Shown piece after piece: positions 4,021 through 33,650 of a stretch of 38,841 nt of DNA. Each line of letters begins with the position of its first letter. Position 1 is the first letter of the stretch. The DNA is from Pseudomonadota bacterium (GTDB taxonomy: Bacteria > Pseudomonadota > Gammaproteobacteria > Burkholderiales > JAKAFK01): contig JAKAFK010000031.1 of NCBI GenBank assembly GCA_021817985.1, positions 1-38,841 of the forward strand. The letters run 5' to 3'. Both the position numbers and the translations under genes were made by a program. The notes beneath the pieces are model-generated. The model saw only the letters and a program-made list of their open reading frames with translations. It had not been told where the DNA came from and made no database searches.

Positions 4021-4362
4021 ATGCCCCAGCTGATCGTCCTGCCCCATGAAGAGTTGTGCCCCGAAGGCGCTGTCATCGACGCCGTCCCGGGCGCGTCGAT
4101 TTGCGACACCTTGCTGAATAACGGCATCGAGATTGAGCACGCCTGCGAGAAGTCGTGCGCGTGCACGACGTGCCACGTCATCGTGCGGGAAGGATTCGCG
4201 TCGCTCAACCCGTCGGAGGAGGAAGAGGACGATCTCCTCGACAAGGCGTGGGGCTTGGAGCCGACCTCCCGTCTGAGCTGCCAGGCAGTGGTCGATTCCG
4301 CCGACCTGGTGATCGAAATTCCCAAATACACCATCAACATGGTCAAGGAGGGGCGCTCATGA
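4021..4362 (+). CDS. fdx: ISC [2Fe-2S] ferredoxin
   Basis: Adrenodoxin-type [2Fe-2S] ferredoxin that supplies electrons for cluster assembly. The ATG at 4021 has a GGGAGAG ribosome site at 4008-4014 and gives 113 residues beginning MPQLIVLPHEELCPEG, as in E. coli Fdx. Cluster ligands C42, C48 and C51 lie in ACEKSCACTTC and the fourth is C87 in RLSCQA. An upstream in-frame ATG within the hscA tail adds only unlikely residues. Its TGA overlaps the iscX ATG by four bases (ATGA), implying coupled translation. Confidence 0.97.
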   Translation: MPQLIVLPHEELCPEGAVIDAVPGASICDTLLNNGIEIEHACEKSCACTTCHVIVREGFASLNPSEEEEDDLLDKAWGLEPTSRLSCQAVVDSADLVIEIPKYTINMVKEGRS

Positions 4363-4553
4363 AGTGGACCGATACGCTCGACATCGCGCTGGCGCTTTGC
4401 GAGCGCCACCCCGACGTGGACCCGCAATACGTGCGATTCACGGACCTCCATCGCTGGGTGACGGAGCTTGAAGGCTTCGCCGACGCGCCCGAGCGCTCCA
4501 ACGAGAAAACCCTCGAAGCCATCCAGATGGCCTGGATCGAGGAGATGGACTGA
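4359..4553 (+). CDS. iscX: Fe-S assembly protein IscX
   Basis: Small acidic protein that binds IscS and iron and is thought to modulate cysteine desulfurase activity. It has 64 residues starting MKWTDTLDIALALCERHPDV. The conserved YVRFTDLHRWV core and the C-terminal LEAIQMAWIEEMD are both present. The start ATG overlaps the fdx stop, which marks it as the last gene of the isc operon. A GC-rich hairpin follows its stop by 6 nt. The length agrees with E. coli IscX (66 residues). Confidence 0.96.
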   Translation: MKWTDTLDIALALCERHPDVDPQYVRFTDLHRWVTELEGFADAPERSNEKTLEAIQMAWIEEMD

Positions 4554-4559
4554 GCCGCC

Positions 4560-4577
4560 TCGGCCCTCCCGGGCCGA
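4560..4577 (+). terminator. Hairpin after the isc operon
   Basis: Perfect 7-bp stem TCGGCCC/GGGCCGA with a TCCC loop, 6 nt after the iscX stop. No T-run follows, so it is either a weak terminator or a 3'-end stabiliser. Position is the main support. Confidence 0.5.
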
Positions 4578-4672
4578 ACCGTATGCGCCGGGTTCGCGCA
4601 CGCCCGGGCCGGTGGCACCCCCCCCTTCAGGATTTTCTCCAACAACCCAACCTAATTCGGTGTCATTAAACG

Positions 4673-4707
4673 TTTTGTCGTCAATGACGACGTGTTAAAC
4701 TAACACG
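4673..4707 (+). promoter_or_regulatory. Candidate flhB promoter overlapped by two perfect palindromes
   Basis: Two perfect inverted repeats abut, sharing base 4691. One is GTCGTCA-A-TGACGAC (4677-4691) and the other is CGTGTTA-AAC-TAACACG (4691-4707). A sigma-70-like pair, TTTTGT (4673-4678) and TAAACT (4696-4701) with 17-nt spacing, can be drawn through them. A poor sigma-28-like alternative is TAAACGTT (4667-4674)-N11-GACGACGT. The flhB ribosome site GAGAGG (4711-4716) and ATG (4722) follow at once. The palindromes are seen directly. Their role as operators for the flhBAFG-fliA operon is inferred. Confidence 0.55.
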
Positions 4708-4721
4708 CCAGAGAGGACGGC

Positions 4722-5864
4722 ATGGCAGATGACAGCGATCTAGAACGAACAGAGCCTGCGTCAGGCAGACGCCTTGACCAGGCACGCTCGAAGGGGCAGG
4801 TTCCGCGCTCGCGGGAACTGAACACGCTGGCCATCTTGTTCGCCGGCGGCGGGACGCTCATGCTCATGGGGAACACGCTCATGGGGCGTCTTGAGGCGCT
4901 GATGCGGCAAGGCCTCACCCTGGCGCCCGGCGAGCCGTTGGGCGGCACCGCGTTATTCGAGCGCTTTCAGCATGAAGCCTATGGGACCTTGCTTGCGTTT
5001 CTTCCGTTCCTCGCGGTCCTTGCCGTCGCCGCAGTGGGCTCCTCGGTGCTTCTGAGCGGCTGGCTGTTCTCGTTCGAGGCCCTTCAGCCCAGTTTCTCGC
5101 GTCTAAACCCCGTTTCCGGCCTGTCGAGGCTCGTCTCCCTGCATGGACTGATAGAGCTCGTCAAGGCGCTGATCAAGACCGTGGTGGTCGGCGGCATCGC
5201 CGCCTGGGTCATCTGGGGACGGCTGGGCGCACTGATGGGCCTCGCGCAGGAGCCTTTCGGCCAGGCGACGGCGCACATGGCCCACTTGACCGGCACGACC
5301 TTCCTGCTGGTGTCCGCGTCGATGATGCTGATCGCCCTGTTCGACGTGCCTTACCAGATTTGGGATTACAACGAGAACCTCAAGATGACCAAGGAGGAGG
5401 TTCGCCAGGAAGCCAAGGATAGCGAGGGGGATCCGCACATCAAGTCGCGCATTCGCTCCCTCCAGCGGGAGGCCGCCCGTCGCCGCATGATGGCAGCCGT
5501 GCCCAAGGCGGACGTGATCGTGGTCAACCCCACCCATTACGCGGTGGCGCTGCAATACCAGGATGATCGAATGCGAGCGCCCCAGGTGGTGGCCAAGGGC
5601 GAACGGCTGGTGGCCAAGCGCATTCTGGAGTTGGCGGAGGGCAGCCATGTGCCGGTGCTGCGTGCGCCGCCGCTCGCCCGTGCGCTGTACCATCATGCGG
5701 AACTGGGAGCGGAGATCCCGGCGGCCCTGTACACCGCGGTGGCCGAAGTGCTGGCCTACATCTATCAGCTGCGTCGCTATCACAGCGCCGGAGGGGTTCC
5801 CCCAGCGCCTCCGGATGCCTTGCCTGTGCCGCCCGATCTGGATCCAGGAGGTGAGGCCGCATGA
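4722..5864 (+). CDS. flhB: Flagellar export apparatus protein FlhB
   Basis: Export-gate membrane protein of the flagellar type III system. It switches substrate class from rod/hook to filament after self-cleavage. It has 380 residues. The N-terminal TEPASGRRLDQARSKGQVP region is the FlhB signature, four hydrophobic segments follow up to about residue 215, and the cytoplasmic domain carries the autocleavage motif NPTH at 269-272, intact. The C-terminus ends in a proline-rich tail. The ribosome site GAGAGG lies 5 nt before the ATG. It is the first gene after the isc operon and starts the flhB-flhA-flhF-flhG-fliA string. Its TGA overlaps the flhA ATG by four bases. Confidence 0.97.
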   Translation: MADDSDLERTEPASGRRLDQARSKGQVPRSRELNTLAILFAGGGTLMLMGNTLMGRLEALMRQGLTLAPGEPLGGTALFERFQHEAYGTLLAFLPFLAVLAVAAVGSSVLLSGWLFSFEALQPSFSRLNPVSGLSRLVSLHGLIELVKALIKTVVVGGIAAWVIWGRLGALMGLAQEPFGQATAHMAHLTGTTFLLVSASMMLIALFDVPYQIWDYNENLKMTKEEVRQEAKDSEGDPHIKSRIRSLQREAARRRMMAAVPKADVIVVNPTHYAVALQYQDDRMRAPQVVAKGERLVAKRILELAEGSHVPVLRAPPLARALYHHAELGAEIPAALYTAVAEVLAYIYQLRRYHSAGGVPPAPPDALPVPPDLDPGGEAA

Positions 5865-7945
5865 ATGCCCAGGTCAACACGCCGTCCATGCTGGGCGGCT
5901 TCGACTTGAGAAGGCTCGCCGGCCCGGTGCTGGTCATCATGATTCTTGCCATGATGATCCTGCCCCTGCCCCCCTTTCTGCTCGATCTGCTGTTCACCTT
6001 CAACATCGCCCTCGCGATGATCGTGCTGCTGGTGGCCCTTTACACGCGGGAGGCCCTGGAATTCTCGGTGTTTCCCACGGTTCTGCTGCTCACCACGCTG
6101 CTGCGCCTGTCGCTGAACGTCGCCTCGACGCGGATCGTGTTGCTGCGCGGCCACACGGGCCCGGCGGCGGCGGGCCACGTGATCGAGGCGTTTGGCCATT
6201 TTCTGGTCGGGGGCAATTACGCCGTCGGGCTGGTGGTGTTCGCCATCCTGGTCGTCATCAATTTCGTCGTGATCACCAAGGGTGCCGGGCGGATCGCCGA
6301 AGTGAGCGCCCGCTTCACCCTGGACGCCATGCCCGGCAAGCAGATGGCAATCGATGCCGACCTCAATTCGGGCCTCATTGCCGAGGACGAGGCGCGCAGC
6401 AGGCGCGCACAGATCGCGCAGGAGGCGGACTTCTACGGTGCCATGGATGGCGCGAGCAAGTTCGTCCGCGGCGATGCGGTGGCCGGCATCATCATCATGG
6501 TGATCAACATCGTCGGCGGTTTGGCGGTGGGTGTGTTCCAGCACGATATGCCGCTCGCCAAGGCGGTGAACAACTATACCCTGCTGACCATCGGCGACGG
6601 GCTCGTCGCCCAGATTCCGGCGCTGGTGATCTCGACCGCCGCCGGTATCGTGGTGAGCCGCGTGTCCACGGAAGAGGACCTGAGCCAGCAGTTGCTTGGC
6701 CAGATCTTCCAGAGGACCCAGGTGCTGTACATCGCCGGTTCCGTGCTCGCGATCCTCGGGCTCATCCCGAGCATGCCGCACGTCGCTTTCCTGATGGTGG
6801 CGGCCATTCTGGGCGGCATCGCCTACTACAAGGAACGCCAGGAGGCGCTGCGTGCCACGGTGCCACCCTCGCCGCCGACGGCTCCCCCCGAGCCGGTCGA
6901 GGTCAGTTGGGACGACGTCCAGCCGGTCGATATCCTGGGGCTCGAAGTCGGCTACCGGCTGATTCCCCTGGTCGACAAGGCGCAAGACGGCGAGCTGTTG
7001 CGCCGGATTCGCGGCATCCGCAAGAAGTTTGCCCAGGAAGTCGGGTTCTTGGTCCCGGCGGTGCATATCCGCGACAATCTCGAACTGCGGCCGAACGGCT
7101 ATCGGGTGCTGCTGAAGGGCGTGGAGGTCGGCTTCGGCGAGGCGTTCGCCGGCATGTTTCTGGCCATCAACCCAGGCCGCGTGCTGGGCGCCTTGCCCGG
7201 ACCGGAGACGCGTGATCCGACCTTCGGGCTGCCGGCGGTGTGGGTCGACGCAGGGATGCGCGAGCAGGCGCAAGGCTTCGGCTATACCGTCGTGGACGCC
7301 AGCACGGTGGTCGCCACCCATCTGAGCAACGTGATCCAAGGCCATGCCGCGGAGCTCCTTGGGCGCGAGGAGGTCCAGCAACTGCTCGATCACTTGGCCA
7401 AGGACGCCCCCAAGCTGGTGGAAGAGGTGGTGCCCAAGCTCGTGCCCTTGGGCGTCTTGCACAAGGTGCTGCAAAATCTGCTGGAAGAAGAGGTGCACAT
7501 CCGCGACATGCGCTCGATCATCGAAGCGCTGGCGGAGACGGGCGCGCGCACCCAGGATGCCGACGAGCTCACGGCGGCGGTGCGGGTGAAACTGGGGCGT
7601 GCTATCATTCACGAGATCTTTTCGGGCGCGGGCGAATTGCAGGTCATCAGCCTGGACCCCTCTCTTGAGCATGTACTGATGCAGGCGACGCTGACCAAAG
7701 GCGCTGAAGGCGCGGGTTTCGAGCCAGGTTTGGCGGAAAACCTGCTCCGCCAGGCCGCAGGCCTCACCCAAGCCCAGGAGCAGTTGGGGCTTCCGGCCGT
7801 CCTGCTGGTGCCGGCCCCGCTGCGCACCGTGCTCTCCCGCTTCTTGCGCCGCGGCATTCCTCAGCTTAAAGTGGTCTCCCACGACGAGATTCCCGATTCC
7901 AAGACCATTAAGGTGACCGCTGTGCTGGGAGGCCGCGCATCGTGA
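5861..7945 (+). CDS. flhA: Flagellar export apparatus protein FlhA
   Basis: Main export-gate protein of the flagellar type III system. It forms the cytoplasmic nonamer that receives chaperone-substrate complexes and helps couple export to the proton gradient. It has 694 residues. About eight membrane segments lie in the first ~310 residues, with the family (FHIPEP) motifs LNVASTRIVLL and DAMPGKQMAIDADLNSGLI between them. The linker is proline-rich (PPSPPTAPPEP), and the cytoplasmic domain runs from ~345 to the end. The start overlaps flhB (ATGA), with GGAGGTGAG just upstream. The end overlaps the flhF GTG by four bases. Complete and ordinary. Confidence 0.97.
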   Translation: MNAQVNTPSMLGGFDLRRLAGPVLVIMILAMMILPLPPFLLDLLFTFNIALAMIVLLVALYTREALEFSVFPTVLLLTTLLRLSLNVASTRIVLLRGHTGPAAAGHVIEAFGHFLVGGNYAVGLVVFAILVVINFVVITKGAGRIAEVSARFTLDAMPGKQMAIDADLNSGLIAEDEARSRRAQIAQEADFYGAMDGASKFVRGDAVAGIIIMVINIVGGLAVGVFQHDMPLAKAVNNYTLLTIGDGLVAQIPALVISTAAGIVVSRVSTEEDLSQQLLGQIFQRTQVLYIAGSVLAILGLIPSMPHVAFLMVAAILGGIAYYKERQEALRATVPPSPPTAPPEPVEVSWDDVQPVDILGLEVGYRLIPLVDKAQDGELLRRIRGIRKKFAQEVGFLVPAVHIRDNLELRPNGYRVLLKGVEVGFGEAFAGMFLAINPGRVLGALPGPETRDPTFGLPAVWVDAGMREQAQGFGYTVVDASTVVATHLSNVIQGHAAELLGREEVQQLLDHLAKDAPKLVEEVVPKLVPLGVLHKVLQNLLEEEVHIRDMRSIIEALAETGARTQDADELTAAVRVKLGRAIIHEIFSGAGELQVISLDPSLEHVLMQATLTKGAEGAGFEPGLAENLLRQAAGLTQAQEQLGLPAVLLVPAPLRTVLSRFLRRGIPQLKVVSHDEIPDSKTIKVTAVLGGRAS

Positions 7946-9366
7946 TCAGAAAATTCCACGCGAGCACGACGCGCGAGGCGCTGCGTCAGGTGCGCGACGC
8001 GCTGGGGGCGGACGCCATCATCCTCTCGAATCGCCAAGTGGCGGGGGGCGTCGAGATCATGGCTGTGGCCGACATGGATGTGGCGGCTTTGACCGCCCAA
8101 CAGCTGCAGTTCGCCACCGCCCGCGTCGGAGATCCCGTGGCCCCCCGCCGTGAGCCCGTCCGGCTGCCTGCACAGGCCGACGTGCCGCCGAGGCCGGTTG
8201 CGCGCGAGGTCCAGCCCCCCGCGCCGGCACCAGCACCGCAGGTCCTGGCGCCCGCGGTTCCCGAGATGCCGCCGACGCCCAACCTGGCGGCGGTGCCCCC
8301 GATACCGGCGGCATCGGCCCCCCAGGCGAGTACGCCGCCGCCCAACGGCGCCGAAACACTCCCCGGTGCCGTGTCCTACGACGAATTCAGGAACGAGCTG
8401 TTTCGCGAAATCAGGTTCTTGCGCGGCCTCCTGGAGGGCCAGCTCGCGGGGCTTGCGTGGACCGACCTGCGGCGGCGCGATCCGGCCAAGCTCGAGATCA
8501 TGCGGCGCATGCTCAGTGCCGGCTTCAGCGCAACGCTGGGCCGTCAGCTGCTGGACAAGATGCCCGAGGGGTGCGACTTCGAGCGGGGATTCAAATGGGT
8601 CAAGGCGGCACTGGCCCATAACCTGCACGCGGTGTCCATCGGCGAGGATCTGGTCGAACGGGGCGGGGTCTATGCGCTGGTGGGGCCCACCGGAGTCGGC
8701 AAGACGACCACGGTCGCGAAGTTGGCGGCCCGCTGCACGTTGCGGCATGGCGCCGGCAAGCTGGCGCTGCTGACCACGGACAGCTATCGGATCGGCGCCC
8801 ATGATCAGCTGCGCATCTATGGCCGCATTCTGGGGGTGCCCGTCTACTCGATCAAGGACGAGTCGGATCTTCAGCTCACGCTCGCCGATTTGAAGAACCG
8901 GCACCTTGTGCTCATCGATACCGTTGGCATGAGCCAGCGCGATCGCCGGCTCGCCGACCAGGTGGCGCTCTTGTGCGGCGATGGGCGGGAGGTGAAGCGC
9001 CTCCTCCTCATCAGTGCCGTCTCTCAAGGCAGCACGCTAGACGATGTCGTGCGCAGCTACCAGGGAACGGGCATGAGCGGATGCATCCTGACCAAGGTCG
9101 ATGAAGCCGTCGGCGTGGGGTCGGGGCTTGACGTCATTATCCGTCACCGCCTGAGCCTGCATTACGTGACCAACGGGCAGCGCGTGCCTGAGGACCTGCA
9201 TCTGGCCAATTCGACCTATCTGGTGGACCGTGCCTTCAAGTCGGGGCAGGAGCTGGGCCCGTTCGGCGTCGAGGAAGCCGAAGCCCCGCTCCTCATGGCC
9301 ACGGACTTCGGGAGCCAGTTGGAAGAGGCCGAGTCCCGCCGCCTCAAGGCGACGCGACAGGGGTGA
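7942..9366 (+). CDS. flhF: Flagellar SRP-like GTPase FlhF
   Basis: SRP-type GTPase that marks the site of polar flagellum assembly and works with FlhG. It starts at GTG 7942, overlapping the flhA stop as GTGA, and has 474 residues. The N-terminal B domain (MIRKFHASTTREALRQVRD) is followed by a long Pro/Ala linker, residues ~70-135. The NG domain has the P-loop GPTGVGKT at 248-255, DTVGMSQRD as the G3 box and TKVDE as the G4 box. All GTP-binding motifs are intact, in contrast to the neighbouring FlhG. FlhF implies polar flagellation, but this is not proven here. Confidence 0.95.
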   Translation: MIRKFHASTTREALRQVRDALGADAIILSNRQVAGGVEIMAVADMDVAALTAQQLQFATARVGDPVAPRREPVRLPAQADVPPRPVAREVQPPAPAPAPQVLAPAVPEMPPTPNLAAVPPIPAASAPQASTPPPNGAETLPGAVSYDEFRNELFREIRFLRGLLEGQLAGLAWTDLRRRDPAKLEIMRRMLSAGFSATLGRQLLDKMPEGCDFERGFKWVKAALAHNLHAVSIGEDLVERGGVYALVGPTGVGKTTTVAKLAARCTLRHGAGKLALLTTDSYRIGAHDQLRIYGRILGVPVYSIKDESDLQLTLADLKNRHLVLIDTVGMSQRDRRLADQVALLCGDGREVKRLLLISAVSQGSTLDDVVRSYQGTGMSGCILTKVDEAVGVGSGLDVIIRHRLSLHYVTNGQRVPEDLHLANSTYLVDRAFKSGQELGPFGVEEAEAPLLMATDFGSQLEEAESRRLKATRQG

Positions 9367-9367
9367 T

Positions 9368-10252
9368 GTGGGGCGGGCGCCGCACGATCAGGCCGAAGGG
9401 TTGCGTCGCCTCCTCGCTCGCGGGGAGACGCGCATCATCGCCTTCGCCAGCGGGTGCAAGGGCAGCGGCCAGACCAGCGCAATCCTGAATCTGGGCGCCG
9501 CCCTTTCGAGAGGCGGGCGGCATGTCGTGGTGCTCGACGAGGCCGGCGGCCGCGCCAGTCTTTCGCATGCCCTGGGCGTCGACCGTTCCCGCGACCTCGT
9601 GAGCCTGGCGCGCACGGACGAAGGGGTGCGTGCGCTTCTCGAGGAGAACGCGGATGCCCTTCGCGTGATCCCGGTGGCACACGGCCTGCGCGGGCTGTCC
9701 GAGTTGTCGTCGGAGGCGGTGGAGCGGCTCGCGCAATCACTCGCCGCCTCGCCCCGCCCGATCGACGTGCTGATGGTGGACGCAAAGCCGGGGGGCGAGG
9801 GCGTTCCCATCTGCCTCGCCGCGCCCGAAGTGGTCGTGGTCGTGAGCAACTCCCGTTCCTCGATCAAGGAGGCCTACGCGTTGATCAAGGTCCTGAGCCA
9901 GGAGTATGGGAGGCATCGCTTCCACCTCTTGGTGACGCGAGCGGGACAAGGCGACGGGGAGACCATCTTCGCCAACATGGTGGAGGCGACCAGCCGTTTT
10001 CTCCAGGTTTCCCTGGACTTCATGGGCTGGGTGGCGCCCGACGAAAAAGTCGCCCAGTCGGTGCGGACCGGGCGCACCGTGGTGGAAGCATGGCCCGCAT
10101 CGGATTGCGCCAAGGCGTTCCGCGGCTTGGCCGATGTGATCGAGCGCTGGCCGTATCCGCGCGAAGAAGAGGGCAGGATGGACGTTTTCGTGCGGCGGCT
10201 GGTCTATAGCAGTCGAATTGCGGCAAAACAGTTGAGTTCGGCCTCGACATAG
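9368..10252 (+). CDS. flhG: FlhG/FleN-type flagellar number regulator with degenerate Walker A
   Basis: MinD/ParA-like protein that normally limits flagellar number by antagonising FlhF and the flagellar master regulator. I chose GTG 9368, one base after the flhF stop, with AGGGG just before it. This gives 294 residues. Aligned without gaps to the usual GGKGGVGKT, the deviant Walker A reads SGCKGSGQT (residues 28-36): the signature lysine is Cys30 and the second lysine is Gln35. The usual LDAD motif reads LDEA. VLMVDAKPGG occupies the Walker B/switch area, and the C-terminal MDVFVRRLVYSSRI resembles the FlhG membrane-targeting helix. Gene position supports FlhG. ATPase activity is doubtful. 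It may belong to a divergent FlhG branch. Confidence 0.85.
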   Translation: MGRAPHDQAEGLRRLLARGETRIIAFASGCKGSGQTSAILNLGAALSRGGRHVVVLDEAGGRASLSHALGVDRSRDLVSLARTDEGVRALLEENADALRVIPVAHGLRGLSELSSEAVERLAQSLAASPRPIDVLMVDAKPGGEGVPICLAAPEVVVVVSNSRSSIKEAYALIKVLSQEYGRHRFHLLVTRAGQGDGETIFANMVEATSRFLQVSLDFMGWVAPDEKVAQSVRTGRTVVEAWPASDCAKAFRGLADVIERWPYPREEEGRMDVFVRRLVYSSRIAAKQLSSAST

Positions 10253-10258: not shown

Positions 10259-10320
10259 GCTTGCGCCCGGGAGGAGCAGACACGGGACATCCCGCGTGCT
10301 CGCAAATTAAAAAGACCGTT

Positions 10321-11034
10321 ATGCGTGACACTGCAACGAATCTCGACAAGGACAAGGCGGTCGCGGACTATGCGCCTCTCGTCAAGCGCATCGCCTATCA
10401 CCTCATGGCGAGATTGCCTTCCAGCGTGCAGATCGACGATCTTATCCAGGCGGGCCTCATTGGCCTGCTGGATGCCGCCACCCATTTCGACGCGTCGCAA
10501 GGGGCCCAGTTCGAGACCTACGCCGTGCAGCGCGTGCGCGGCGCCATGCTGGACGAATTGCGGCAGGCCGACTGGCTCCCGCGCAATGTGCGCAAGTCCT
10601 TGCGCGTCATCGAGGCGGCGGTGGCCAAGCTCGAGCAGAAGAGCGGACGCCCGCCGACCGAGCGGGAGCTGGCCGAGGAACTCAACATGCCCCTGGCGCA
10701 ATATCAGCAGATGCTCCACGATGCCCGTGGGTGCCAGCTGCTCTACTACGAAGATTTCCAGGAGGGGGAAGGGGCCGATTTCTTTGACCACTATGGCGCC
10801 GAACAACGGGTCAATCCGCTCGACATTCTCTCGGATGGGCGTTTCCGGAGCCAGCTCGTGAAGGCTATCGAGGGGCTTCCCGAGCGCGAGCAGCTGGTGA
10901 TGGCCCTCTATTACGAACAAGACCTCAACCTGAAGGAAATCGGCGAGGTCTTGGGCGTGAGCGAGTCGCGGGTCTGCCAGCTGCACGGCCAGGCCGTATC
11001 CAGGCTCCGAAGCCGCCTGCGCGACTGGACCTGA
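10321..11034 (+). CDS. fliA: Flagellar sigma factor FliA (sigma-28)
   Basis: RNA polymerase sigma factor for late flagellar genes. The ATG at 10321 gives 237 residues beginning MRDTATNLDKDKAVADYAPL. A longer frame from TTG 10261 has a non-conserved extension. Region 2 includes DLIQAGLIGLLDAATHFD and the -10-contacting segment around FETYAVQRVRGAMLDELR. Region 3 follows, and region 4.2 is the helix-turn-helix NLKEIGEVLGVSESRVCQL. It lies 68 nt after flhG. Its predicted targets in this window are the promoters before motC, flgM and flgK. Its antagonist FlgM is encoded about 2.3 kb away on the other strand. Confidence 0.97.
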   Translation: MRDTATNLDKDKAVADYAPLVKRIAYHLMARLPSSVQIDDLIQAGLIGLLDAATHFDASQGAQFETYAVQRVRGAMLDELRQADWLPRNVRKSLRVIEAAVAKLEQKSGRPPTERELAEELNMPLAQYQQMLHDARGCQLLYYEDFQEGEGADFFDHYGAEQRVNPLDILSDGRFRSQLVKAIEGLPEREQLVMALYYEQDLNLKEIGEVLGVSESRVCQLHGQAVSRLRSRLRDWT

Positions 11035-13284: not shown

Positions 13285-13593
13285 TCACGCCTTTCCGGAA
13301 AGCACGAGTTCCTTCACGGTATCGAGAAGGCGCTCGGCGATGACGCTGGAGTCGATCTGGAAGCGGCCTTCGCTGATGGCCCGCTTGATTTCTTCCACGC
13401 GTGCCGTGTCCACCTCGCCGACCCCGGCGAGGCTTGCCTCCAACAGGCTGAGCTGCGCCGAGAGCGACGTGATCCGGACGCTGTCGTCCCCCGACGGCCC
13501 GGACGTGCCGGGCGAATTGCGCGAAGCTCGGCCCTTGGTCTGGCTTTGCGTGACCCCCGCCCCGCGTGATGGCTTGGAGGAGCCTACTTTCAA
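13285..13593 (-). CDS. flgM: Anti-sigma-28 factor FlgM (TTG start)
   Basis: Binds FliA and holds late flagellar transcription off until the hook is complete, when FlgM is exported. It has 102 residues. The N-terminal half is low-complexity, Gly/Ser-rich and probably disordered, as needed for export. The C-terminal half contains the FliA-binding helices: DTARVEEIKRAISEGRF, then the IDSSVIAERLLDTV stretch. The start is TTG (13591-13593) with GAGGT upstream, since no ATG lies in frame. It is preceded by a very good FliA promoter, as expected for feedback, and followed by flgN. Confidence 0.92.
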   Translation of the reverse strand: MKVGSSKPSRGAGVTQSQTKGRASRNSPGTSGPSGDDSVRITSLSAQLSLLEASLAGVGEVDTARVEEIKRAISEGRFQIDSSVIAERLLDTVKELVLSGKA

Positions 13594-13684: not shown

Positions 13685-13711
13685 TTATCGTCCGGTACCT
13701 GTAAAACTTTA
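13685..13711 (-). promoter_or_regulatory. Sigma-28 (FliA) promoter for flgMN
   Basis: Read on the minus strand: TAAAGTTT (13704-13711), exactly 11 nt, then GACGATAA (13685-13692). This is a full -35 match and one mismatch in the -10 to TAAAGTTT-N11-GCCGATAA. The leader to the flgM TTG is about 85 nt. The rest of the 13594-13823 gap shows no other clear signal. Confidence 0.88.
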
Positions 13712-13823: not shown

Positions 13824-14951
13824 TCAAGCCAGGGCGGGCTGCCCGACGTCGGGGCTTGGCGCAGGCCCGATGATGCGATTCTTGCCCAGCTGCTTTGCCT
13901 GGTACATCCGTTCGTCGGCCATGGCGACCAGGGCGCGCCAATCCGTCGGGCGGTCCGCGTCTGAGGCGATGCCGACGCTGGCCGTGAGAACCTTCTCGTC
14001 CGGCCGAACGATGCTCGTGCCGTGAAGGAGCGCCTCGAGGCGACGAGCGGCTTGCGGCGCGCTGGCGTGCGGAAAGAGGAGCACGAATTCCTCGCCGCCC
14101 CAGCGAACGATGGCATCGGAGGCGCGCAGGCCGGAGCGTAGTCGAGAGGCCAGGGCGACGATGATGCGGTCGCCCGCCGAGTGGCCGAAACGGTCGTTGA
14201 TCGACTTGAAATCGTCGATGTCCAGGAATGCGAGCGCCAGCGGGTAGTGATGACGGGCCGCGAGTCTGATCTGGAGGGCGATGACCTCTTCGCCGGTCTT
14301 CCGGTTGAGGGCACCGGTCAGGGCGTCGGCGCTGGAGCGGGCAAAGAGTTCGCGCATCAGGAAGAGTTGCATGGCGGCCGAAATGGCGGCCACGCCGCTG
14401 ACCAGCACCAGCAGCCACAGAATCGCGATGCCGTCGATACCGGGCAGGAGGGATTGCGAGGGCAGGAGGAACGGCGCGGCGAGGGCTGCCGCCAGGATGG
14501 GCGCCGCAAGCGCCAAGGATTCGGAAAATGTGAGGGGAAAGACGGCGATTCCCGAGGTCAGGATGAACGGCAGGAAGGTGTAGCCACTGGCCATGGCGGC
14601 ACCGATGTAATCGAGATGGGTGCCGCTTAGCACAGCCCGGGAGTAGACGAAGAACGTGGCCGGGATGAGGAAGAGCAGGAGCAGCCCCGAGCGCATGCGG
14701 GCCAGCTGCGGTTCGCAGCGGCACAAGAGTGCGACCGCCATGAAGGCAGCACTCACGGCAAAGCGACCGATTTCCAGGCGAATGGCGATGCGCGGCGGCA
14801 GGGCCAATTGATCGAGGATGGCCCACAACGGCGTGACCACCGCAAACAACGCCGCAATCAGCCGCACCCGGTAGAGCACGACCCGGGCTCGCTCGCGGGA
14901 AAAGATCTCTGAGTGCGTGCGGCTCGTGAGGCCCGCCTTGAGGTCGATCAT
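13824..14951 (-). CDS. Membrane-bound GGDEF diguanylate cyclase between flgA and flgMN
   Basis: Predicted to make c-di-GMP from two GTP at the inner membrane. With the ATG at 14949-14951 (MIDLKAGL, GGGTGG upstream) it has 375 residues. An in-frame ATG at 14991-14993 would add 14 and has no clear ribosome site. About six hydrophobic segments cover residues ~25-195 and form a sensor region I cannot name. The GGDEF domain follows, with the GGEEF active site at 285-289 and an RASD inhibitory (RxxD) site five residues before it. The enzyme therefore looks active and product-inhibited. It lies in the same direction as flgA upstream and flgM downstream. Substrate and signal are unknown. Confidence 0.88.
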   Translation of the reverse strand: MIDLKAGLTSRTHSEIFSRERARVVLYRVRLIAALFAVVTPLWAILDQLALPPRIAIRLEIGRFAVSAAFMAVALLCRCEPQLARMRSGLLLLFLIPATFFVYSRAVLSGTHLDYIGAAMASGYTFLPFILTSGIAVFPLTFSESLALAAPILAAALAAPFLLPSQSLLPGIDGIAILWLLVLVSGVAAISAAMQLFLMRELFARSSADALTGALNRKTGEEVIALQIRLAARHHYPLALAFLDIDDFKSINDRFGHSAGDRIIVALASRLRSGLRASDAIVRWGGEEFVLLFPHASAPQAARRLEALLHGTSIVRPDEKVLTASVGIASDADRPTDWRALVAMADERMYQAKQLGKNRIIGPAPSPDVGQPALA

Positions 14952-15067
14952 CGTGTGTCCACCCAGTTGACAAACCAATCCGTCAAATCCCATGCGGAAG
15001 CGTCTGGGCGTGCGCAGCGCTTGGGCCTTCCATACGATAGGAACTTACGCTATTGGGGGAGGGGGGT

Positions 15068-16178: not shown

Positions 16179-17966
16179 ATGAGTACTCGTTCGACGGCCA
16201 ATCCTACCGACATCGCGCGCGAGACCCTGAAGGTCCTGGCGACGCGCCGCATGCTGCCCACCCCGGAGAATTATCAGAAGGTTTACCACGAAGTCGCCGG
16301 TACCGCGCCGGAGGCGCCCGGGCTGGAAGAGCTCCAGATGATCGTGCGCCGGTTGGCCGAGCATGCGGCCACCGCGAAGCGCCCTCTGCTGTCCTTGGAT
16401 CGTGCGCTGGGGGAGCGCCAATGGGCGAAGGTCGAGGAAGCCCTTGCAAAGCTCTCGGGCGGCGGGTCCGATACCGTGTCCTGGCCCGACCTGATTCGGG
16501 AATTATTGAAACAATGGCAGACGGCCCATAGCGGGCTGACCACTCAGCGCAAGCGCGAGGGGGTCGAGCAGGTGCTCATCCATTTCGGTTCCGATCCCGC
16601 GATGCTGGGGCCCAAGCTCCAGGCGCTGGTGGCCTCGTGGGCCCAGTCGCCTGCGGCGCCCGGCGGGAGCCTCACGGAGGGCGAGGCACTTGCCGCGGCC
16701 GTTGAGGCCACCCCATCCCCCGCCCAGGCGGTGCGCGCGGCGCCGCAGGCGCCCGACGGCGCGGTTGCGGGCATGCTGCGCGATCTCGTCGCCCAGACGC
16801 TTGAGCAAGGGGTGGTGCCCCGGCTGGTGCGTTTTCCCGACCTGGCCGACGGCGCCCGGAGTCTGGTGGCGCGCGTGCGGGAAGCCACCGATGTCCTCGC
16901 GCTGCAGGGACTGTCGAAGGAGCTGAAGGCCCTATGGGTGCGCATCGAACTGCGCGGCGAGGACGACGCGCAATTGCTCGCTTCCGTGCTCTCGCTGCTG
17001 CGCCTTCTGCTCGACAATGTGGCCGAGCTCGTTTCCGACGACCAGTGGCTGGCCGGGCAGATCGATGTCGTCCGCAAGGTGATGACGGGCGAAGTGGATC
17101 GCCGGTCGATGTTCGAGGCGGAGCGGCGCTTCAAGGAAGTCCTTTACAAGCAAGGGACCTTGAAGAAGAGTCTGGACGAGGCCAAGAGCACGTTCAAGCA
17201 TATGATCGCCACCTTCGTCGATCGCTTGGGGCAGATGGCCGAAAGCACGAGCGGCTATCATGACAAGATCTCGGCTTACTCCGAACGGATCAGTGCGACC
17301 GAGACCATTCATCAGCTCTCCTCCGTCGTGCACGAATTGATGGCGGATACCCGCGGGATGCAGCTGGACATCGCGCGCTCGCGCGACGAGTTGATCGAGA
17401 CGCGCCGCCAGGTGGATGAGGCCGAAAGAAAGGTCCATGAGCTCGAGCTCGAGCTCGAACGGGTCAGCGGACTCGTGCGCTCGGACCAGCTCACCGGCAC
17501 CCTCAACCGGCGCGGCCTGGAGGATGCGTTTGAGCGAGAGCTCGCGCGCGCGGCGCGGTCCGGCGCCGCGTTGAGCCTCGCGCTTCTGGATGTGGACCAT
17601 TTCAAGAGGCTCAACGACCGTTATGGCCACCAGGCCGGCGATGCCGCCTTGGTCCATCTGGCGCGCGTCGTGCAGGAGACGTTGCGTCCGGTGGACGTGG
17701 TGGCGCGCTATGGGGGCGAAGAGTTCATCATCGTCATGCCCGAGACGCCGGCCGCACAGGCCGTCAAGGCCATGACGCGGCTGCAGCGCGAACTCACCAA
17801 GCGGTTCTTTCTCCATAATCAGGAGCGCCTGCTCATCACCTTCAGCGCAGGGGTGGCCCAGTGGCGCGCGGACGAGCCGGTCGATGCGCTCATCGCGCGC
17901 GCCGACCAGGCGGTCTATGAAGCCAAGGAGCACGGGCGTAACCGCGTGGTTCTGGCGGGCGCCTAG
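16179..17966 (+). CDS. Cytoplasmic GGDEF diguanylate cyclase with long helical N-terminus
   Basis: Predicted c-di-GMP synthase of 595 residues without signal peptide or membrane helix. Residues 1-~400 form a family-specific alpha-helical region I cannot assign to a named sensor domain. An Ala/Pro-rich linker lies around 155-195. A coiled coil just before the catalytic domain includes the ELELELE stretch, encoded by three tandem GAGCTC hexamers at 17439-17456. The GGDEF domain starts at DQLTGTLNRRG. Its active site GGEEF is at 512-516, and an RPVD inhibitory site lies five residues earlier, so catalysis is expected. The ribosome site is weak. It is divergent from flgA and stands immediately before the flgB promoter, with a strong terminator between. 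Confidence 0.9.
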   Translation: MSTRSTANPTDIARETLKVLATRRMLPTPENYQKVYHEVAGTAPEAPGLEELQMIVRRLAEHAATAKRPLLSLDRALGERQWAKVEEALAKLSGGGSDTVSWPDLIRELLKQWQTAHSGLTTQRKREGVEQVLIHFGSDPAMLGPKLQALVASWAQSPAAPGGSLTEGEALAAAVEATPSPAQAVRAAPQAPDGAVAGMLRDLVAQTLEQGVVPRLVRFPDLADGARSLVARVREATDVLALQGLSKELKALWVRIELRGEDDAQLLASVLSLLRLLLDNVAELVSDDQWLAGQIDVVRKVMTGEVDRRSMFEAERRFKEVLYKQGTLKKSLDEAKSTFKHMIATFVDRLGQMAESTSGYHDKISAYSERISATETIHQLSSVVHELMADTRGMQLDIARSRDELIETRRQVDEAERKVHELELELERVSGLVRSDQLTGTLNRRGLEDAFERELARAARSGAALSLALLDVDHFKRLNDRYGHQAGDAALVHLARVVQETLRPVDVVARYGGEEFIIVMPETPAAQAVKAMTRLQRELTKRFFLHNQERLLITFSAGVAQWRADEPVDALIARADQAVYEAKEHGRNRVVLAGA

Positions 17967-18130: not shown

Positions 18131-18146
18131 TGGCACGTTTCATGCT
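18131..18146 (+). promoter_or_regulatory. Sigma-54 promoter for the flgB operon
   Basis: TGGCAC (18131-18136), five bases, then ATGCT (18142-18146). The invariant GG (18132-18133) and GC (18144-18145) have the exact -24/-12 spacing, against consensus TGGCAC-N5-TTGCW. Transcription would begin near 18157, about 24 nt before the flgB GTG. This implies an enhancer-binding activator (FleQ/FlrC type) encoded elsewhere. Confidence 0.85.
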
Positions 18147-22496: not shown

Positions 22497-22552
22497 CGGT
22501 AGGCACGATAATTGCTCCTCTCAGGGCATGCCGTCGAAGAACAGGTAAGCGT

Positions 22553-31288: not shown

Positions 31289-33607
31289 TCATGGGGTTTT
31301 CGCCATCGAGCGGCTCTTGCGCCGCCTGCCGGGGTGGGAGGAATCCCGGTCGCGCGCCGGCGCGGGGTCAGACCCTCGCGATGCCTCCTGCCATTCCTCG
31401 ATGGGGGTAGGCCGCCCAAACAGATAGCCTTGATAGTGGCCGCAGCCGCTGTTGCGCAGGAATGTCAGCTGCTCGCCCGTCTCGACGCCTTCCGCGATGA
31501 CCTCGACGCCGAGCGTTTGGCTCATCGCGATGATGGCGCGCACGATCGCCGCATCGTTGGGGTCGCTCGACACGTCGCGAACGAAGGATTGATCGATTTT
31601 CACCTGATCCACCGGCAGCCGCTTGAAATGAGACAAGGAGGAGTATCCCGTACCGAAGTCGTCCAGCGCGAAGGTGACGCCCAGTGCCTTGATTTCCTGC
31701 ATGCGGTGAATGGCTTCTTCGACATTCTCCACCACCATGCTTTCCGTCAGCTCAAGCTTCAGCCGTCTCGGATCGGCACCGGAATAAGCCAGGGCGGCGT
31801 GGACCTGGTCGACGAAGTCGGGGTGGCGGAACTGGCGGGCGCTGACATTGATCGCAATGATCCGGTTCCGAGTGAGGTCGTTGCGCGCCCATGCCCGCAG
31901 CTGGTTGCATGCCGTTTCGATGACCCACAGGCCCAGCGGGAGGATGAGGCCCGTTTCCTCCGCCAACGGGATGAACTGGCTGGGCGCCACCGGGGAACGG
32001 CCGGGCGGGAGCCAGCGCAGCAACGCTTCAGCGCCCGTCACCTGCCCCTCGTGATCGACCTGCGGCTGGTAAAACAGGCGAAATTCCCCGCGCTGCAGCC
32101 CCCTGCGCAAGGCCGTTTCCATCTCCGCGCGCGCCTCGATGGCCGCCTGCATCTCCGGGTTGAAGAAGCGGATCGTGTTGCGTCCGGCGCCTTTGGCCTG
32201 ATAAAGGGCGACATCCGCCTGCTTGAGCAGGTCTTCGCTGGTGAGTCGGCGACCCCGAAAAAGCGTCACCCCAAAACTTGCCGTGCTGAAGTGGCGGGGT
32301 CTGTTTTGCGCGGTGGAGAAGGGCACGCCGAGCGCCACACGCAGTTTTTCCGCGATGTGCTCGGCCTTCTTGGCGGCTGTCCTTGCATCGCTCCCCAGCC
32401 TTTCCATCATGACGACGTATTCATCGCCCCCCAAGCGGCAAACCGTGTCGCCTGAGCGCATGTGGGCCACGATGCGCTGGGCGACTTCCACCAGCAGACG
32501 GTCGCCCGCATCGTGCCCCTGGGTGTCATTGAGCCCCTTGAAATTGTCGAGATCGAGCATCATCAGGGCACCGAATTCCCGCGTCCTGACGCTATTGAGC
32601 AACGCTTGGCCCAGACGGTCCAGCAGGAGACGGCGGTTCGGCAGCCCGGTGAGGGAATCGAAGTAAGCGAGCCCATAGATCTGTTCCTCGGTTTGTCGGC
32701 GGGCGGTGATGTCGACGAAGGTCATCACGGCTCCGATGACCTTCCCATCCTGCATCTTGGGATGAGCCCAGCACTCCACCGGGAAGGCGGTTCCGTCACG
32801 GCGCCAATACACCTCGGTGTCGGCGTGGATCGTGCTGCCGCACGCTGCCAGGCGGTGAGCGGGGCAATCGGCGAGCGGCAGGGGCGTGCCGTCCGCACGG
32901 GCGTAATGGATCAGCGCGTGCATGGGCTTGCCCAGCAGCTCGTCCTCGCGCGCATAGCCCAGCAACCGCAGGCAAGCGGGGTTGGCGAATGTGCAGCGCC
33001 CCTCCGTGTCGATGCCATAGATGGCTTCACCCACGGCGTCGAGGACGAGGCGCACGCGCTCTTCGTCCGCACACAATTGTTTGAACAGGCGCGCATTGTC
33101 GATCGCGATGCTGGCCTGGTTGGCAAACAAGGTGAGGAGGGTCTGGTCGCGCAGGTTGAACGGCGACGGCCCGCGCTTCCCTAGCGCGGAGAGGCCGCCG
33201 ATGACGGCCCCTCGGCACACCAGCGGCACGAGAAGACTCGACGCCATGCCCTTTTCCCAGACCGCGCTGGCATCCAGGGCAAAGCCTCCGCCCTCGCCGA
33301 ACAAGAGCGGCTGGCGGTTCCGGAATACCCACCCGCAGGCGCCTTCGCTGATCGCGAAGGTCTGGCCGCGGATGGCCGCGCCATACTTGCCACTGGCCGC
33401 GCGGTAGGTAAAGGTCTCGCCATTCGCGTCGATCAGCGGTACCGTCAGGGTCTCGGCCTGCACGACCTGGCGTGCGGTTTCTGCCACGAGGGCAAGCACG
33501 TTCTCAAGGTCCAACTCGGTCCCCAGTTGCTCCCCCAGGCGCAAGAGCAGGGCGAGTTCCTGATAGGACAGGTCGGGGGCAGGCGTTTTCTTGTTCAGGA
33601 GGCGCAT
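31289..33607 (-). CDS. GAF-PAS-GGDEF-EAL c-di-GMP turnover protein
   Basis: Soluble dual-domain protein that may make or break c-di-GMP. I chose the ATG at 33605-33607 (MRLLNKKTPAP, 772 residues). A GTG at 33620-33622 would add five. The order is GAF (~40-180), PAS (~185-305), GGDEF (~325-490), EAL (~505-750), then a basic tail ending RRRKSRSMAKTP. The GGDEF active site reads GGDEY, a variant of GGDEF, with an RSGD inhibitory site five residues before it. The EAL domain is complete: AEALLRW, INVSARQF, ELTES, DDFGTG, VKID and EGVET. Phosphodiesterase activity is therefore expected, while cyclase activity is uncertain. It lies 43 nt after dsrE2 and may be co-transcribed. Confidence 0.92.
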   Translation of the reverse strand: MRLLNKKTPAPDLSYQELALLLRLGEQLGTELDLENVLALVAETARQVVQAETLTVPLIDANGETFTYRAASGKYGAAIRGQTFAISEGACGWVFRNRQPLLFGEGGGFALDASAVWEKGMASSLLVPLVCRGAVIGGLSALGKRGPSPFNLRDQTLLTLFANQASIAIDNARLFKQLCADEERVRLVLDAVGEAIYGIDTEGRCTFANPACLRLLGYAREDELLGKPMHALIHYARADGTPLPLADCPAHRLAACGSTIHADTEVYWRRDGTAFPVECWAHPKMQDGKVIGAVMTFVDITARRQTEEQIYGLAYFDSLTGLPNRRLLLDRLGQALLNSVRTREFGALMMLDLDNFKGLNDTQGHDAGDRLLVEVAQRIVAHMRSGDTVCRLGGDEYVVMMERLGSDARTAAKKAEHIAEKLRVALGVPFSTAQNRPRHFSTASFGVTLFRGRRLTSEDLLKQADVALYQAKGAGRNTIRFFNPEMQAAIEARAEMETALRRGLQRGEFRLFYQPQVDHEGQVTGAEALLRWLPPGRSPVAPSQFIPLAEETGLILPLGLWVIETACNQLRAWARNDLTRNRIIAINVSARQFRHPDFVDQVHAALAYSGADPRRLKLELTESMVVENVEEAIHRMQEIKALGVTFALDDFGTGYSSLSHFKRLPVDQVKIDQSFVRDVSSDPNDAAIVRAIIAMSQTLGVEVIAEGVETGEQLTFLRNSGCGHYQGYLFGRPTPIEEWQEASRGSDPAPARDRDSSHPGRRRKSRSMAKTP

Positions 33608-33650
33608 CGCAAAGTGTGGCACCCTTTCGCCGAAGGTTGTGGCCGCATGG

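Follow-up and report, generated by a model that had tools for sequence, protein, structure and literature searches.

Two abutting palindromes before flhB overlie a probable sigma-70 type extended -10 promoter, and their symmetry is confined to one betaproteobacterial genus

Why do two perfect palindromes lie end to end immediately before a flagellar operon? The question is raised by a stretch of DNA of 38,841 nucleotides (the window) from a betaproteobacterial genome assembly (3.97 Mb, 184 contigs, 96% complete), whose class was assigned from named relatives. A first look at this stretch, the sequence-only reading, had reported two end-to-end perfect palindromes before flhB, and their coordinates and sequences are borne out (Table 1). 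Both are located in the 168-bp gap between iscX and flhB, and they have one base in common, C4691. As described below, the site is probably a sigma-70 extended -10 promoter of flhBAFG-fliA, and the palindromic symmetry would be sequence local to the genus.

Table 1. Features around the flhB leader, with coordinates in the window
Feature	Position	Strand	Remarks
iscX	4359-4553	+	upstream neighbour, same direction as flhB
flhB leader kept in sister genome	4636-4721	+	83/86 identical vs 62/82 in 4554-4635
-35 candidate TTTTGT, weak	4673-4678	+	17 nt before -10; 2/6 to TTGACA
palindrome 1, GTCGTCA-A-TGACGAC	4677-4691	+	perfect inverted repeat, 7-1-7
palindrome 2, CGTGTTA-AAC-TAACACG	4691-4707	+	perfect inverted repeat, 7-3-7
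extended -10 element TGTTAAACT	4693-4701	+	sigma-70 type; probable promoter of flhBAFG-fliA
candidate ribosome-binding site AGAGAGGA	4710-4717	+	purine-rich; by eye
flhB	4722-5864	+	Bac_export_2, E 1.8e-126
flhA	5861-7945	+	gene call and domain match
flhF	7942-9366	+	SRP54-type GTPase; name by gene order
flhG	9230-10252	+	MinD/ParA type; named from gene order; listed GTG is probably too early a start
fliA, flagellar sigma factor	10261-11034	+	sigma-70 regions 2, 3, 4; name by order

Single short palindromes are ordinary in this DNA, because the window contains 21 inverted repeats (arms of 7 or more, loops of 3 or fewer), and 60 shuffled versions contain a mean of 17.5 (sd 4.2). No other abutting pair occurs in the window; shuffled windows have a mean of 0.033 such pairs with loops of at most 3 and 0.15 with loops of at most 8. 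When the 168-bp leader was shuffled 20,000 times, at least two palindromes appeared in 0.21% of the shuffles and an abutting pair in 0.01%, which makes the arrangement unusual, but it was singled out after all 38.8 kb had been read. A search for phage relatives of 4300-5864 gave no match, and a search of the open-licence literature for palindromes at an flhB promoter found none.

The left arm of palindrome 2 coincides with the extended -10 element, and palindrome 1 fills the spacer between the -35 and -10 positions. The -10 hexamer, TAAACT at 4696-4701, is 20 nt before the flhB start codon, and TGTTAAACT has the TG one base 5' of a TAnnnT hexamer by which extended -10 promoters are recognized. 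A poor -35 can be compensated by the TG of an extended -10. The site resembles known promoters of this type (TGn-TAnnnT) in the TG one base before TAAACT, in its poor -35 and in its conservation before flhB across families. It differs from them in that the -10 matches TATAAT at only four of six positions and in that a strict consensus scan of 4300-4900 called no sigma-70 promoter, the latter because the -35 is poor. We predict that flhB-flhA-flhF-flhG-fliA are read from this housekeeping (sigma-70) promoter, consisting of TGTTAAACT and the poor, T-rich -35 TTTTGT, and that transcription starts near 4708, which would leave about 14 nt of leader. Both palindromes would then be upstream of the start and so would be absent from the operon's own mRNA.

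The sequence-only reading had proposed TAAACT as the -10, TTTTGT as the -35, and the gene set flhB-flhA-flhF-flhG-fliA downstream. The -10 and the gene set are supported by the leaders of relatives and by the gene calls; the two hexamers are 17 nt apart. The -35 itself is weakly supported: by eye, a T-rich hexamer (TTTTTG or TTTTTC) is present 17 nt 5' of TAAACT in five relatives (L011, L156, L157, L159 and L168), whereas the match of TTTTGT to TTGACA is poor.

The conservation of the element can be seen in the flhB leaders of betaproteobacterial relatives. A total of 149 leaders were collected, and 10 that equalled others in the last 60 nt were dropped, which left 139 distinct ones; 18 more were added to give 157. 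The additions came from 20 leaders fetched later, less L214 and L222, which duplicated other leaders; L114 (a partial flhB) and L192 (the same place as L180) were left out. Part of the leaders came from the upper part of the matches listed, in a draw of 399 genomes from a larger order, and a few begin at residue 2 to 4 of the match and so contain a few coding bases. The element TGNTANACT occurs within 110 nt of the flhB start in 30 of the 139 leaders, as compared with a mean of 0.9 and a maximum of 5 in 300 rounds of shuffling; the leaders are related to each other, so that these counts are not independent, and the shuffles, like those used for the NrdR scores below, keep single-base composition only. 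On the reverse strand TGNTANACT is found in none of the 139.

After the additions the element is present in 35 of the 157 leaders and in at least eight families besides the window's own (f1), namely f15, f29, f30, f39, f43, f45, f47 and f50. It is not universal, because 122 of the 157 leaders do not have TGNTANACT in the 110 nt searched. The distance to the start codon is 19-24 nt in 20 of the 33 sites outside the genus. For example, two leaders (L013 and L039) have GTGGTAAACTA at the same 20 nt as the window; the near relatives L010 and L011 have ATGTTACACTAAC and ATGGTAAACTAGC, respectively; and L157, L159 and L168 all have ATGTTAAACT with TTTTTG 17 nt upstream.

In the 33 sites outside the genus, conservation is seen in the TG, in TAnACT and in the C at relative position -2. 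This C is present in 25 of the 33, and position -1 is G in 11 of the 20 sites that are 19-24 nt from the start. Since these two bases are also kept outside the genus, the left arm CGTGnTA of palindrome 2 corresponds to the conserved element. The right arm past the hexamer (relative positions 9-14) has no column of at least 0.5 bits outside the genus, and the same is true of palindrome 1 (relative -16 to -2), except at -2. When symmetry was counted on 30 aligned sites, all seven pairs of palindrome 2 were present in the two members of the genus and one to five in the other 28, so palindrome 2 is perfect in two of the 30 sites, both of the genus. At the position of palindrome 1 the two genus members have seven and six pairs and the other sites have at most four, with a mean of 1.6, and the palindrome is perfect in one of the 30. 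These alignments show conservation of the promoter but not of the symmetry. Bases 4702-4707, which make palindrome 2 complete, and palindrome 1 in the spacer would be sequence particular to the genus, and nothing in it points to selection for symmetry.

In the genome collection the window's family consists of two genomes only, the source assembly and a sister genome, G001, which aligns with the window nearly end to end in three pieces at 90-92% identity. The leader differs between them at 4636, 4648 and 4681. The last of these, T4681C, breaks one pair of palindrome 1, and palindrome 2 is unchanged. The survival of palindrome 2 alone says little, because 7 of the window's 21 short palindromes are still perfect in G001. 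Nor is the conservation of the leader exceptional, since an identity of 84/86 to G001 is reached by 52 stretches of the window, the leader included. Conservation of the palindromes in relatives, which had been put forward as a test of their importance, is therefore lacking for palindrome 1 inside the genus and for both palindromes outside it.

Could the palindromes be genus-specific operators, at which one or more dimeric repressors bound over the spacer and the -10 would shut off flhBAFG-fliA? We regard this as unlikely. In its favor, the arms are perfect and sit where a repressor would act, across the spacer and the -10, as in the palindromic operators of TetR, LacI or GntR type dimeric repressors that cover a core promoter. 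In addition, the abutting pair is rare in the leader shuffles described above, palindrome 2 is intact in the sister genome, and boxes of a repressor type, resembling those of NrdR, occur in the same promoter region of other families. However, unlike such operators, the symmetry is not conserved outside the genus and has no regulon. The genome contains palindrome 2 exactly once, and the next best two places have 2 mismatches; one of these is in open frames and the other (L122) is at the edge of an open frame and may be intergenic. With up to 3 mismatches palindrome 2 has 38 places in the genome, as compared with 111 for its reversed control. Palindrome 1 has three one-mismatch copies, all within open frames, and it is broken in the sister genome. 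The centres of the two palindromes are 15 bp apart, which would put them on opposite faces of the helix. To our knowledge neither palindrome is a known operator. Because the family is represented by only two genomes, drift and selection are inseparable, and the genus may have a local operator here, though we consider this unlikely.

These results also bear on what had been expected of the palindromes. The sequence-only reading suggested a scan of the genome for further copies; that scan found no set of sites in leaders, and so no regulon, for either palindrome. It had envisaged two regulators or two hairpins, for which the symmetry outside the genus and the genome-wide sites give no indication, and direct control of flhBAFG-fliA through the palindromes, which as two-operator control is unsupported.

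A broader version of the operator idea is that the flhBAFG-fliA promoter serves as a docking point for differing repressors in different betaproteobacterial lineages: several families would have paired NrdR boxes there, which sense nucleotides through NrdR, and the genus of the window would have two new palindromic operators on opposite helix faces, covering the spacer and the -10. This seems to us improbable. If it were true, production of the flagellar export apparatus, and of its sigma factor, would depend on two unrelated signals.

It is very unlikely that the palindromes work at the RNA level, as hairpins that mask the flhB start codon in read-through transcripts from iscX and so restrict translation to mRNA made from the flhB promoter. 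Such hairpins would need read-through from iscX, since the palindromes are upstream of the promoter's start. Read-through is conceivable in that no terminator-like site was found on the plus strand in 4300-4900, both hits being on the minus strand. The predicted fold of 4620-4740 has a z score of -2.5, with 2 of 200 shuffles as good; in it UGUCGUC is base-paired to GACGGCA at the start codon, and hairpin 2 is present. However, nothing marks out the shorter fold of 4670-4740 (z -1.5, with 15 of 200 shuffles as good), and the best fold has no separate hairpin for palindrome 1. No Rfam family reaches its gathering score in the window, and, as noted above, the symmetry is not conserved outside the genus.

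That flhB has a promoter of another class, either sigma-28 (TAAA at 4667, N15, GACGA) or sigma-54 (TGGCAC at 4613), is highly improbable, even though the window has one 15/16 sigma-28 site and two sigma-54 sites with 1 mismatch elsewhere. The match TAAACGTT-N11-GACGACGT at 4667 agrees at 10 of 16 positions with TAAAGTTT-N11-GCCGATAA, which we take to be the sigma-28 consensus, but 135 window sites score at least 10 (both strands, spacers 10-12), and the sigma-28 promoter was rejected. The sigma-54 promoter was rejected because the core TGGCAC-N5-TTGC has no match with 2 or fewer mismatches in 4554-4721; the TGGCAC at 4613 is also altered in the sister genome.

The possibility that the two palindromes are a degenerate NrdR box pair is practically nil and was rejected: NrdR-type pairs are present in the flhB leaders of f15, f35, f39 and f50, but the best pair in the window leader scores 16/32, below the shuffled mean of 16.8, the centre spacing is 15 bp and not 32, and the genus has no pair at flhB, its two leaders (L008 and L009) ranking 90th and 117th of 139 by NrdR pair score.

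The pairs in the other families are a separate matter. For scoring we used ACACwATATaTwGwgT, which we take to be the NrdR box consensus. With paired boxes exactly 32 bp apart, 21 of the 157 flhB leaders score at least 21, versus 12 of 3140 shuffled leaders. Nine of the 21 are from f50, five from f15, three from f39 and two from f35, and the remaining ones are L040 and L044; leaders with such a pair include L015, L017, L044, L155, L162, L163, L164, L171, L184, L187, L190, L211-L213, L215 and L216. The pair is to either side of the -10 or overlaps it in f15, L044, L163, L017 and L190, and it is upstream of, not over, the TANACT site in f39 and most of f50. The pairs of L040 and L153, at 150-200 nt from the start, may be due to chance. 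The pair score also peaks at offsets of 30 and 34 (14 and 13 leaders versus 21 at 32), which we take to be register shifts of the same boxes. The same scoring was applied to RNR loci. In the 11 best of them, one per genome examined and including the window's genome, the best pair occupies one and the same position ahead of the RNR domain and scores 21-28; six other RNR loci score 17-20, and of 204 shuffled loci five reach 22 and none 24. The NrdR pairs at flhB should be considered a lead, because the consensus is our assumed one and because some second boxes do not have the conserved G at position 13.

The 16-bp spacer of the pairs falls within the 14-17 bp with which NrdR proteins bind paired boxes, according to PMC12051234. 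The window palindromes share with the box pairs of RNR promoters a position at the core promoter and the presence of NrdR-type pairs in orthologous flhB leaders of other families. They differ in that they do not match the box and in that their spacing is 15 bp, as opposed to the roughly three helix turns described in PMC9110341 and PMC12051234. The pairs in other families suggest that flagellar export genes may be under dNTP-sensing control; if they are real, the onset of flagellum assembly would be linked to dNTP levels. A search of the open-licence literature for NrdR together with flhB gave a single paper, on a Bacillus cereus genome. Effects of NrdR on motility and chemotaxis have been reported in E. 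coli, with the mechanism described as unknown in PMC4898720. NrdR boxes at flhB, if real, would be one possible direct route for these effects.

If the site before flhB is the sigma-70 extended -10 promoter that we favor, how does it fit with the rest of the flagellar genes? No Pfam match to FlhD, FlhC or FleQ was found in the 96% complete genome, and therefore flhBAFG-fliA is probably not a classical class 2 target of FlhDC or FleQ; a class 2 promoter controlled by either was rejected for want of a match to a master regulator. The genome has eight strong matches to sigma-54 activators. A sigma-28 type promoter, TAAAGTTT-N11-GACGATAA, matches at 15 of 16 positions at 13685-13711 on the minus strand, before flgM (13285-13593, minus strand), and both of its boxes are intact in G001. 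Two sigma-54 type sites, each with 1 mismatch and each unchanged in G001, are TGGCACGTTTCATGCT at 18131-18146, near an flgB-like start, and AGGCACGATAATTGCT at 22501-22516, just before flgH; the whole window has no excess of sigma-54 matches (16 versus 19.4 expected). Three GGDEF or GGDEF-EAL proteins are encoded in or beside the flagellar cluster, at 13824-14993, 16179-17966 and 31289-33622. The sigma-54 and sigma-28 type sites would fit early expression of flhBAFG-fliA from a housekeeping promoter. The operon would then have a housekeeping-type promoter in a genome where FlhDC and FleQ were not found, and would share its gene cluster with sites of the sigma-54 and sigma-28 types.

Two other patterns were noted by eye in the collected leaders. 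Some of them (such as L063, L073, L079, L086 and L102, from Dechloromonas, Azonexus and similar bacteria) have a long conserved block, approximately TTTAATTTTTCTnGTTTTTTCCTATAATRGCC, upstream of flhB; its TATAAT is near consensus, and the promoter type differs from that of the window. Leaders L053-L059, L070 and L076, from Chitinibacter, Iodobacter, Silvimonas, Deefgea and similar bacteria, have a sigma-54 type site, approximately TGGCAC-N5-TTGCTT, on the opposite strand just upstream of flhB, as would be expected for a divergent gene.
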